The notes beneath the pieces are model-generated. The model did not search any database. It saw only the letters and a list, made by a program, of their open reading frames with translations, and was not told the DNA's origin. A program made the position numbers and the translations under genes. DNA of 64,000 bases from a bacterium (GTDB lineage: Bacteria > Zhuqueibacterota > Zhuqueibacteria > Residuimicrobiales > Krinioviventaceae): the NCBI GenBank assembly GCA_029561455.1, contig JAKQIY010000047.1, positions 250,332 to 314,331 on the forward strand, in the 5' to 3' direction. Positions 58,965-63,353 of the stretch are shown piece after piece. Numbering within the stretch: the stretch's first letter is position 1; every line of letters begins with the position of its first letter.

Positions 58965-59840
58965 ATGCAAAAAATCGGCTTTATCGGCCTGGGCATTATG
59001 GGAAACTCGATGTGTTTGAACCTGCTCAAAGCCGGGTTCCCGGTCACCGCCTGGAATCGCACCCGCGTTAAAATGCAGTCGGTTATCGACGCCGGGGCGC
59101 AGGCGGCCGCATCCCCGCAGCAAGTTGCGGAAAATGCGGAAATCATCATCACCATGGTATCCGATTCCCCGGATGTGCAAGAGGTTATTCTTGGCGACGC
59201 CGGTGTGATTAAAGGCGTTAAATCCGGAAGTGTAGTCATCGATATGAGCACTATTTCTCCTGCGGTTACCCGCGATATTGCCGCCGAACTAGGCAAAAAA
59301 GGCGTGGCTATGCTGGATGCGCCAGTCAGCGGCGGGGATAGCGGCGCGCGCAATGCCACCCTGGCGATCATGGTCGGCGGCGAGGCAAAGGTGTTGGAAC
59401 GCTGTATGCCGGTGTTTATGGCGATGGGCAAAACCGTCACCCATGTCGGCGTTAACGGCATGGGACAAACAGTGAAGCTCTGCAACCAAATCCTGGTATC
59501 TGTGACCAACATGGCGGTGTGCGAGGCCATCCTGTTTGCGCGCAAATCCGGTGTAGAGCCGCAGGTGATGATCGAAGCGGTAAAGAACGGCGCGGCCGGC
59601 TCGTGGCAGCTCTCCAACCTGGGACCCAAAATGGTCGCGGGGGATTTTAATCCCGGCTTTATGATCGACTTGCAGCAAAAGGATTTGCGGCTGGCGCTGG
59701 AAACCGCCCTGGTAACCTGCACGCCGTTACCCGCCACCGACCTGGTGCACCAGTTATTCGACGATTGCCAGGCGCACGACGAAGGCCGCCTCGGCTCCCA
59801 GGCGTTGTTCAAAGCGTTGCTGCGGCTGGCGGGGGAATAA
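58965..59840 (+). CDS. NAD(P)-dependent beta-hydroxyacid dehydrogenase (HIBADH/GarR/GLYR family)
   Basis: This cytoplasmic oxidoreductase has the Rossmann motif IGFIGLGIMGNSMCLNL, an NADP-favouring WNRTR at the end of strand 2, the substrate motif DAPVSGGDSGARNATLAIMV, and the catalytic lysine in GQTVKLCNQILV. Length (291) is normal. The family reduces or oxidises 3-hydroxyisobutyrate, tartronate semialdehyde, glyoxylate or succinic semialdehyde; the exact substrate cannot be told. An AAAAGGAG ribosome-binding site lies right after the GH13 stop codon. A palindromic repeat begins three bases after its stop. Confidence 0.9.
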   Translation: MQKIGFIGLGIMGNSMCLNLLKAGFPVTAWNRTRVKMQSVIDAGAQAAASPQQVAENAEIIITMVSDSPDVQEVILGDAGVIKGVKSGSVVIDMSTISPAVTRDIAAELGKKGVAMLDAPVSGGDSGARNATLAIMVGGEAKVLERCMPVFMAMGKTVTHVGVNGMGQTVKLCNQILVSVTNMAVCEAILFARKSGVEPQVMIEAVKNGAAGSWQLSNLGPKMVAGDFNPGFMIDLQQKDLRLALETALVTCTPLPATDLVHQLFDDCQAHDEGRLGSQALFKALLRLAGE

Positions 59841-59843
59841 TGT

Positions 59844-59967
59844 TTTGCAGGATGGGGGATTGCCCTTTGAGTTTGACGGTGTTTTAATTGTTACAAAATG
59901 TTTGAAATTGACTGAAGAGTAAAATAAAAACCATAATTAAGGAAATCCTCCATCCTGTTACTGATAG
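59844..59967. repeat. Palindromic ~124-bp element, copy 1
   Basis: Left arm CAGGATGGGGGATT and right arm AAATCCTCCATCCTG are nearly complementary and enclose about 90 diverged AT-rich bases. It starts three bases after the dehydrogenase stop codon. Copy 2 is at 61375-61496. Confidence 0.8.
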
Positions 59968-60002: not shown

Positions 60003-60674
60003 TTAGCGGGTTCGACCTGTGAAAATCATGTTAGTGGAAGAAGACTGAAATAATGGAGTACTCGATTGAAGAACATAAGCACCGATTTGCAGCTTGGGCG
60101 GCCGGTAGAGCTGCAAGTGTGAACGGTTGCCGCTTTCCCGTGGAAGAGGGTAAGACCATCTTAGAAAAAGCGGGAATGAAAGAGCTGATATACGGTCCTG
60201 ATCGTTTGCCATTGCCCAAGGATATTGACATAATGCACCGAGAGTGGCGATCAAGGATCATAAAAGCCGCCGCTAACTACCCTTTTACTCATGGCGTGGC
60301 CGCTAAACTTATCAACATCTATCTCAAGGCTTGTTTTGTCTGCGCAGGTTACGACGAGCACGAACGAGTCCGCGCGCTACATCCTCCAATTGACAGCCTT
60401 CTTCTGAAAGAGCTTTCTGAACGGCACATTGGAGGACGTAGAGCCATTTGGGACGAAGCAATAGGAATAAGATGGTCAAAATTTAGTTCAGACCAATACG
60501 AGAAGGTTATTACCAACATTCGGCAAGCTATGGGAGACGCACCGCTTTGGGAGGTCGAGAAGTATTGGAGGGGCTATCAAAAAAGAGTCCGCTAACAAAT
60601 GCGATAACCCGAGGCGGTAAAATATCGGGCTATTTTACCGAAAGGTAGTCACGCCCGCGCGGATTACGCTGGTG
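60003..60674 (+). mobile_element. Integron-type gene cassette
   Basis: The cassette runs from TTAGCGG at 60003 to the G at 60674 within the attC right core GTTAGCC. Its first seven bases, with the preceding G, are the exact complement of the left core CCGCTAAC at 60589-60596, as expected when a circular cassette with its own attC has been inserted. It contains one gene in the usual orientation, whose stop codon lies inside the left core. No integrase gene is present in the window. Confidence 0.75.
60053..60595 (+). CDS. Hypothetical cassette-borne protein
   Basis: This soluble 180-residue protein begins MEYSIEEHKHRFAAWAAGRA and has no membrane segment or signal peptide. I do not recognise an enzyme motif. 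From memory, similar proteins beginning this way are frequent passengers of integron gene cassettes, but I could not search. The start lacks a strong Shine-Dalgarno, as is usual for cassette genes. The gene is richer in G and C (31 of 60 bases at 60361-60420) than the AT-rich DNA to its right. Its TAA lies inside the attC left core. Confidence 0.8.
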   Translation: MEYSIEEHKHRFAAWAAGRAASVNGCRFPVEEGKTILEKAGMKELIYGPDRLPLPKDIDIMHREWRSRIIKAAANYPFTHGVAAKLINIYLKACFVCAGYDEHERVRALHPPIDSLLLKELSERHIGGRRAIWDEAIGIRWSKFSSDQYEKVITNIRQAMGDAPLWEVEKYWRGYQKRVR

Positions 60675-60681
60675 TTAGCCT
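60589..60681 (+). other. attC recombination site
   Basis: Outer cores are CGCTAAC and GTTAGCC. The inner boxes pair as GCGATAACCC with GGATTACGC, with one unpaired extra base, the usual extrahelical base of attC sites. The middle holds a hairpin CGGTAAAATA/TATTTTACCG. The total of about 93 bases is within the normal attC range. Confidence 0.82.
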
Positions 60682-60735
60682 TGAATATTTATAAGAGAGT
60701 GTTACGTTGTTTAAACCTGCAAAGAAAGGAAAAAA

Positions 60736-61371
60736 ATGAGCAAGATTGCATATCTTTATGTATTTGATACGATGGCAGATTGGGAACCAGGTTATGTTAT
60801 AGCCGAACTAAATTCAGGACGGTATTTTAAGGATAAAACGTTGAAATATGACGTAAAGACCGTTAGTTTAACACAGGAGCCGATTACGACAATGGGTGGC
60901 ATCACAATACTCCCGGATTTGACTATTCACCAATTGACGGCTCATGAGGCTGGCGTATTGATCTTACCTGGCGGCGATACCTGGTTAGAATCTCTCCATG
61001 CTCCTCTTTTTAACCGCGTGAGCGAGTTTTTACAGGCGCACATTCCTGTTGCTGCGATTTGTGGGGCAACGTTCGGTTTAGCGGCACATGGGTTTCTAAA
61101 CAATCGTCAACACACCAGTAATAATCTTGACTATCTCAAAGCAATCTGTCCAACTTATAAAGGAGAGCCATTCTATCGCCACGAACCGGCAGTCATTGAC
61201 GGGGAGCTGATTACTGCGTCAGGAATTGCGCCGCTTGATTTTGCCTGTACGATCCTGGACAAGCTTGAGGTCTTTTCCCCGGCGACCCTTGAGGCATGGT
61301 ATAAATTATACCAGACGCACGAAGACAGGTATTTTTTTGCTCTGATGGCATCTTTACCACAGGTTCCATAA
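60736..61371 (+). CDS. DJ-1/PfpI-family type 1 glutamine amidotransferase-like protein
   Basis: The protein (211 residues) has the DJ-1/PfpI fold: YLYVFDTMADWEPGYVIAEL, AGVLILPGGDTWLE and the nucleophile elbow VAAICGATFGLAAHGFLN with the likely catalytic cysteine in ICGA. A histidine (HTSNNLDYLK) follows. Close relatives are annotated as YdeA-like proteases or glutamine amidotransferase-like proteins; the true activity could be a glyoxalase, deglycase or stress function. The AAAGGAAA ribosome-binding site is good. It lies just right of the attC site but no second attC follows its stop, so it is not clearly a cassette gene. A palindromic element begins three bases after its stop codon. Confidence 0.88.
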   Translation: MSKIAYLYVFDTMADWEPGYVIAELNSGRYFKDKTLKYDVKTVSLTQEPITTMGGITILPDLTIHQLTAHEAGVLILPGGDTWLESLHAPLFNRVSEFLQAHIPVAAICGATFGLAAHGFLNNRQHTSNNLDYLKAICPTYKGEPFYRHEPAVIDGELITASGIAPLDFACTILDKLEVFSPATLEAWYKLYQTHEDRYFFALMASLPQVP

Positions 61372-61374
61372 GAG

Positions 61375-61496
61375 TTTGTAGGACGGGGGATTTCCCTTTG
61401 TGAAAGAGTATTTGTAATAGTTATATGATGATATTGATAAATGGGATTGATTTAAATACTTCAATAATTGATAAATTCCCCATCCTATCAGATAGC
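61375..61496. repeat. Palindromic ~122-bp element, copy 2
   Basis: The arms TAGGACGGGGGATTT and AAATTCCCCATCCTA are imperfect complements. The outer stem differs from copy 1 on both sides (CAG/CTG becomes TAG/CTA), so pairing is preserved. The middle ~70 bases are diverged. Confidence 0.78.
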
Positions 61497-61866: not shown

Positions 61867-62682
61867 ATGTTAAAAAGTTTATTGATAACCGTAACAGATT
61901 ACAAAAAAGCAAATCATAACGCATTGAAGTTCATGATTGCTAGTTACAAAGCTCAATTGAACGTTCTATCATTTGATAATATAGTAGTTCTGTATCCAGA
62001 AAAAAACTTCCCTCAAGATTTTAGAGAATACCTTATTGCACAACAGATTGAAACTTATTCATTTGATATAGATATTTTAGAAGATACTTACAAAGTCAAA
62101 TTATTATTAATAGACTTTGTAAGGAATCATTCTGACTGCTACGATTCCATATTCTATATAGATCCTGATCATTTGTTCATAAAACCATTAACAGTCAAGT
62201 CAATTATACCGGTATCCGGTTCTCTATACGTAAGCTCAGAAGTTGTGTTTGTAGATAAAAATATTGAATTAACAACTAATTACTTTATGGATAGGTATTA
62301 TAATACATCTATCATATTTGGTTCTTCAGCTTCATGGTTAAGTATAATCGATAACTACAGTAAAACCTACGAAGAATTATTTTTTTTATCTAGCTACAGA
62401 CATAGAGAGGAAATTGCTTTTACAATTGCTTCTAAATTGTCATCTATAGCATTAATACCTGTTCCAGAATTATTTCAATCAAACTTTAAGTTATTCAATA
62501 AGAACTGTATCGTCTTTCATTACGGTGGCGAATCAGATGATGCACATATGGTTAAGAAATGTATGTCCTATGCAAATATTGAACTTATATATGAATCCTT
62601 AATTGATCTTTCAAAAAACACATCATTTATAAAAGGGCAATGGGTAGCAAAGATTATAGTTGAGCTATTGAAAGATAAGTAG
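61867..62682 (+). CDS. Glycosyltransferase-like protein (GT-A type, tentative)
   Basis: This soluble 271-residue protein has an N-terminal Rossmann-like segment (MLKSLLITVTDYKKANHNAL) and a DxD-type motif in SIFYIDPDHLFIKPL near residues 97-111, where GT-A glycosyltransferases bind the metal and nucleotide sugar. A histidine near the end (CIVFHYGGESDD) matches the late metal-binding His seen in GT8-like families. AAGG precedes the ATG. The next gene starts 20 bases downstream, so the two are probably co-transcribed. The DNA is strongly AT-rich, unlike most of the window. The donor and acceptor are unknown, and the family call rests on motif placement only. Confidence 0.55.
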   Translation: MLKSLLITVTDYKKANHNALKFMIASYKAQLNVLSFDNIVVLYPEKNFPQDFREYLIAQQIETYSFDIDILEDTYKVKLLLIDFVRNHSDCYDSIFYIDPDHLFIKPLTVKSIIPVSGSLYVSSEVVFVDKNIELTTNYFMDRYYNTSIIFGSSASWLSIIDNYSKTYEELFFLSSYRHREEIAFTIASKLSSIALIPVPELFQSNFKLFNKNCIVFHYGGESDDAHMVKKCMSYANIELIYESLIDLSKNTSFIKGQWVAKIIVELLKDK

Positions 62683-62702
62683 AAAAATAAGGATCAATTT
62701 TA

Positions 62703-63353
62703 TTGTCATCAATAAATCATATAGGTCTAATACCTGACGGAAACCGACGTTGGGCGTTAAAGAATTCTTTAGATTATAAAACAGCTTACATGAAATCTAT
62801 GGTGCATATTGTAAATTGTATTGGCTGGATATTTGATATGAATTTTGAAAGTATAAGCATCTATTTGTTAAGCAATGAAAACCTTAAACGTGAGCGTGAG
62901 GACATAGACTCTGTGATTTATGCGGAAGAATACCTCTTATCTGATATACTTTACCCAGTTTGTCAACAATATTCTTGTAAAGTTATTCATGCAGGTAATA
63001 GGGACTTACTACCTTATTCTATGAAAATCAAGATTGACTATCTATGCAGCATTACTAGAGATTATAAAGAAAGGACGCTATTTCTTTTGATAGGCTACAA
63101 TCCAATTGATGAAATAAATACTACAATTAACCAAAATGGTTTTATTGAAATGAGTTTATTAAGTGTTCCTAAAAAGGTTGATGTAGTAATCAGAACGGCA
63201 GGAGGAGCTTCACTTCTGAGTAACTTTTTGCCAATCCAGTGTGGTTATGCACAGATATATATGGTAGATGCATTATTCAACGATCTAACAAGGCAAGAAA
63301 TAGAGGCAATATTAAATACTGCATCACAGGTTAAAATGCAGTATGGCAAATAA
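62703..63353 (+). CDS. Cis-prenyltransferase (UppS)-like protein with altered active-site residues
   Basis: It resembles undecaprenyl diphosphate synthase: IGLIPDGNRRWA matches the conserved xMDGNGRWA motif with the catalytic Asp at residue 12, SNENLKRERED matches the SSENWxRP region, and VDVVIRTAGGASLLSNFLPI matches the RTGGExRxSNFLxWQ motif. Compared with E. coli UppS (from memory), E198 and R200 of the latter motif are lost, and E213 of YAELY is replaced by Gln (YAQIY). The length of 216 residues is somewhat short. The start is TTG with AAGGA about ten bases upstream. A housekeeping role is unlikely given its island setting; it might make or bind a different prenyl carrier. Confidence 0.75.
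   Translation: MSSINHIGLIPDGNRRWALKNSLDYKTAYMKSMVHIVNCIGWIFDMNFESISIYLLSNENLKREREDIDSVIYAEEYLLSDILYPVCQQYSCKVIHAGNRDLLPYSMKIKIDYLCSITRDYKERTLFLLIGYNPIDEINTTINQNGFIEMSLLSVPKKVDVVIRTAGGASLLSNFLPIQCGYAQIYMVDALFNDLTRQEIEAILNTASQVKMQYGK

Follow-up and report, generated by a model that had tools for sequence, protein, structure and literature searches.

The locus raises the question whether a gene for a protein of 180 amino acids, found in the 64,000-nucleotide stretch of DNA analysed here (the window), belongs to a genuine integron gene cassette, and how such a cassette came to stand there. The original prediction had described a true cassette with a well-formed attC, either inserted alone at a secondary site or left over from a larger array. 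The features that we assigned to the locus are as follows.

59850-59959, no strand: REP-like imperfect palindrome to the left of the array, a neighbour
60003-60674, forward strand: gene cassette A, from the T after the left crossover G through the G of R', with start core and R'' complementary at 8 of 8 positions
60053-60595, forward strand: cassette A gene, 180 aa, whose TAA stop (60593-60595) lies inside R''
60589-60680, forward strand: attC of cassette A, with R'' at 60589-60596, L'' at 60601-60611, a central hairpin, L' at 60660-60669 and R' at 60674-60680
60675-61374, forward strand: cassette B, truncated at its 3' end, with R'' and attC missing; 92% DNA identity to locus L283 of another genome over 60674-61374, from the crossover G
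60736-61371, forward strand: cassette B gene, 211 aa, DJ-1/PfpI family (PF01965, E 7.5e-29)
61381-61489, no strand: REP-like imperfect palindrome to the right of truncated cassette B, a neighbour

Anatomy and gene of cassette A

The left boundary of cassette A, as read from the sequence, is G60002^TTAGCGG, with the core at 60003-60009. This start core (GTTAGCGG) is complementary to R'' (CCGCTAAC, 60589-60596) at every one of its eight positions, and the stop codon of the gene falls within R'', both as the original prediction had claimed. The remaining boxes of the attC read GCG[A]TAA for L'' (60601-60607), TTACGC for L' (60664-60669) and G60674^TTAGCC for R', and the extrahelical base is A60604, a T on the bottom strand. 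Folding of the bottom strand as DNA gave an R stem, a 3-base spacer, an L stem (3+7 pairs, a single T bulging out) and a hairpin in the centre; the L stem reaches this length because C60608/A60663, read on the bottom strand, is G.T. Both stems and the extrahelical base are thus present, and the fold bears out the paired inner boxes, single extrahelical base and central hairpin that had been predicted. Cassette A is a genuine integron gene cassette with the complete anatomy of a mobile cassette, and the folding model shows that the bottom strand of its attC can adopt a hairpin of the kind that integron integrases recognise. An Rfam search of the window gave no match.

The protein encoded by cassette A matched no family in Pfam, PADLOC or PHROGs and no solved structure, and a single-sequence fold of it reached a pLDDT of 42, too poor for use. 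Its conserved residues include an HPPID motif. Homologues of the gene with 27-54% identity lie on plasmids of Vibrio, Microvirga, Rhizobium, Haliscomenobacter and others, and the plasmid copies in these four named genera are without the cassette signature. No match to the gene was found in 147 genomes, in the other 81 genomes of the phylum, in the genome contig collection, or among viral contigs and phages.

Cassette-level statistics and the covariance model

We assembled reference attCs as chains in which the R' of one site matches the R'' of the next, using 80 integron-integrase loci from public genomes and 20 loci from relatives of the organism. Links of this kind numbered 239, against 23 in shuffles. 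Our first attC pattern scanners were too loose and were abandoned. The signature that we used at the level of the whole cassette combined three features: a core match of 8 or more, an L stem with a bulge, and an ORF whose end lies at R''. Applied to about 2.02 Mb of the genome, a total of 2.09 Mb less about 74.5 kb of N, it picked out two places only, cassette A and a cassette of an integron on contig C27, and both are real. Shuffled DNA amounting to 143.8 Mb yielded 8 matches, from which about 0.004 are expected by chance per 64 kb; one of the 8 had an R-box match of 6 or more, and in all of them the fold probability stayed below 0.40. The real-genome control is the safer of the two, because shuffles hold fewer long ORFs than real DNA. 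For the attC of cassette A the recombinogenic bottom-strand fold had a probability of 0.40; among 74 array-linked attCs the median was 0.35, and 12 chance look-alikes had a 95th percentile of 0.28. The rarity of the signature upheld the claim of a true cassette.

The description of the attC as well formed was right only in part: its fold is canonical, its sequence divergent. A home-made covariance model, built from 49 array-linked attCs in a set dominated by other phyla, scored the site at 8.9 bits, with an E value of 0.033 in 301 bases that becomes about 7 when scaled to 64 kb and is too weak for a genome-wide call. Run over the window, the same model did not report the site, so that the covariance check proposed with the original prediction came out half against it: unreported in the window, and 8.9 bits on the 301 bases. 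Held-out attCs linked to integrons mostly scored 26-49 bits with this model, and a few 14-20. With default filters it also omitted the second attC of the resident array on C27, which scored 17.4 bits unfiltered. A genome-wide attC search, in which 150 of 1002 candidates were scored with a narrow covariance model, returned nothing. We take the attC of cassette A to be real but divergent in sequence. Divergent attCs of this lineage can score below the threshold of a covariance model, and integron remnants may therefore be under-counted there; signs at the level of the cassette, namely matching cores, an ORF ending in R'' and homology that begins at the crossover base, recover such remnants.

The second cassette and the integrase of the genome

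The DJ-1/PfpI protein encoded behind cassette A is 90% and 87% identical to two copies in one genome (G010) from another family of the same order; no homologue of its gene was found in the family to which the window's own genome belongs. The alignment of L283, on contig C152 of G010, to the window begins at G60674, which is the crossover base, and at position 1437 of L283, which is the G of GTTAGCTC. In L283 the DJ-1 block is flanked by GTTAGCTC and by an R'' (GAGCTAAC, at 2284), and these cores are complementary at 8 of 8 positions. The block lies between complementary cores and its homology starts at the crossover G; it is therefore a gene cassette in L283, and in the window it forms cassette B directly behind cassette A. 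Cassette B opens with a cassette core, right at the crossover G. We call it truncated rather than complete because the R'' that would pair with this core is lost in the window but present in the L283 homologue. The second copy in G010 (L285) is without a core.

The surroundings of the block in L283 are also cassette-like. Beyond its R'' lies an apparent attC remnant with the hairpin deleted (GAGCTAACACTGAGCATCAAGCGCGTTGGCC), and upstream there are a Phd/ParE toxin-antitoxin pair encoded on the opposite strand and an attC-like hairpin, without a recognisable R'', that ends just before the crossover G. The run at L283 653-2310 thus consists of the Phd/ParE pair, the attC-like hairpin and a DJ-1 cassette from whose attC the hairpin seems to have been lost.

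Only the cassette B block, and none of its neighbours, is common to L283 and the window. In the neighbouring chromosomal genes, DNA identity to relatives from the same genus or family is no more than about 64-71%, and against this the 92% identity of the DJ-1 block between families speaks for lateral exchange. The cassette boundary that both hosts share would then record, at base-pair resolution, an exchange of cassettes between families in a phylum that has been little studied.

A search with an integron-integrase HMM gave no IntI match on C36, the contig of cassettes A and B, and the locus is thus not a complete integron, in which intI and attI adjoin the array. The window also holds no second attC, and in both respects the original prediction was right. 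It had further suggested looking for intI elsewhere, and one was found: the sole IntI of the genome, an HMM match across the middle of the model, lies on C27 and comprises the C-terminal half only, in two frames. Judging from these frames it is a truncated, frameshifted pseudogene. In the other tyrosine recombinases of the genome, the stretch from about residue 183 to 243 of the IntI model, which we take to be IntI-specific, is left unmatched.

The decayed integron on C27 (L009 14789-18029) has two cassettes in the same orientation after the pseudogene, the first with an LpoB-like gene, and their attCs lie at L009 16811-16937 and 17901-18029 (127 and 129 nt). In the usual integron layout, intI and the cassettes are divergent. 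Across several genomes of the phylum, cassettes are oriented the same way as intI at L062, L063, L065 and L009, and divergently at L060 and others. Comparison gave no support to the idea that the left flank of cassette A is a copy of the resident attI. Besides the array remnant at the locus, the genome keeps one dead integron on a different contig.

Flanks and origin of the locus

The cassettes are bracketed by REP-like palindromes of about 110 bp (GGAYGGGGGATTNCCCTTTG...AAATCCCCCATCC), of which more copies lie beyond the window at C36:315252, 316384 and 317126. A genome-wide search found this palindrome family essentially confined to 7 kb of C36, and a gene for a Y1_Tnp (IS200/RAYT-like) transposase adjoins the cluster (L201 2189-2749). 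Only about 43 bp separate the left palindrome from cassette A, and the homology of cassette B stops 6 nt short of the right one. Synteny with relatives breaks off directly behind the HIBADH-like gene on the left (58965-59840), and the syntenic regions of the relatives yielded no empty chromosomal site. To the right, 61867-63353 holds a 271-aa gene of low GC content (0.29) with no Pfam family above the cut-off and an UppS-like gene (62703), neither with homologues in those syntenic regions; by these sequence features the two genes are probably foreign.

The reading that we prefer, with a probability of about 0.83, is that the locus is a decayed array of two cassettes without a local integrase, made by IntI and later trimmed. 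Both cassettes would have been inserted by an IntI recombinase acting between the folded bottom strand of an attC and a double-stranded G^TT site, and cassette A would have been placed in front of cassette B. Later trimming would have removed the R'' and attC of cassette B beyond 61374, just before the REP-like palindrome, and a local intI would have been lost or would never have been present. The cassettes would now be fixed, unless an outside IntI acts on the attC of cassette A. We counted against this reading the 8.9 bits of the attC, the attC of cassette B, which is absent in the window and damaged in L283, the attC-like hairpin in front of cassette B in L283, in which no R'' can be recognised, and the failure to find an empty site. 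The start of cassette B at the crossover G supports the part of the original prediction that spoke of a remnant of a larger array.

Beside founding at the attI of a local integron that was later deleted, the decayed array has two variants, whose probabilities overlap with that just given and which differ in where IntI acted. A local intI may never have existed: an IntI from the resident integron, now dead, or one from another cell may have put cassette B and then cassette A at a secondary GG^TT (attG) site. We hold this variant to be possible but somewhat short of an even chance. It agrees with the lack of any IntI trace on C36, with a left flank unlike the resident attI and with documented insertion at secondary sites; against it, two cassettes side by side are commoner in arrays than at one off-target site, and the left flank is so short before the palindrome that a lost intI is still conceivable. 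It is unlikely, on the other hand, that the array was assembled in another host and imported within a larger island, with no IntI action at this place in this genome. The genes at 61867-63353, which have no homologues in the relatives' syntenic regions and the first of which has a GC content of 0.29, and the 92% identity of DJ-1 in another family would fit such an import, but L283 and the window have the cassette B block alone in common, without its neighbours.

The remaining readings do without a cassette array or without IntI. Insertion of one cassette alone at a secondary site was the other half of the original prediction; DJ-1 would then be an ordinary gene of the resident chromosome. This reading has in its favour that the window holds one attC only. 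We gave it up as the leading one when the right flank turned out to be where a second cassette starts, and now consider it quite improbable, since in both genomes the DJ-1 block has its start on the crossover G and in one of them it sits in a cassette. We find it very improbable that the REP-like elements and the Y1 (RAYT-like) transposase helped to excise, move or trim the array and that, as a result, cassettes can pass from one family to another in blocks bracketed by REP elements, with no need of IntI. The palindromes do resemble REP/BIME elements with a RAYT in clustering around the cassettes near a Y1_Tnp gene, but at this locus they are mere neighbours with no sign of having moved cassettes. 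A chance look-alike, in which a laterally acquired gene happens to lie between inverted core-like sequences, is hardly credible: the low covariance score and an L'' that departs from the usual TCAAGC-like sequence speak for it, but about 0.004 such matches are expected per 64 kb, none has this fold, and the homology of the neighbouring block begins at the exact crossover base.

Whether the array was founded at an attI, at an attG site or in another host, the event would be of a familiar kind, because there is good documentation of cassettes inserting off target (PMC10127599). The locus itself belongs to a known type and is a clear, though ordinary, vestige of earlier gene exchange. Formally it is a SALIN, a single attC site lacking integron-integrase in the term used for Shewanella (PMC9229058), with one attC, one complete cassette and no intI nearby, but with the difference that a second cassette without attC stands directly behind cassette A. 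It resembles a CALIN in having more than one cassette without an integrase; the CALIN rule, however, asks for at least two attC sites without intI (IntegronFinder, PMC9024848), and only one attC is left here. Insertion at attG sites, described by Loot et al. (2024) as far as the citing passages in PMC12901181 and PMC12444791 convey, is comparable in that a G^TT insertion away from attI is possible at the locus, but the right side is another cassette instead of an anonymous site and no empty site is known.
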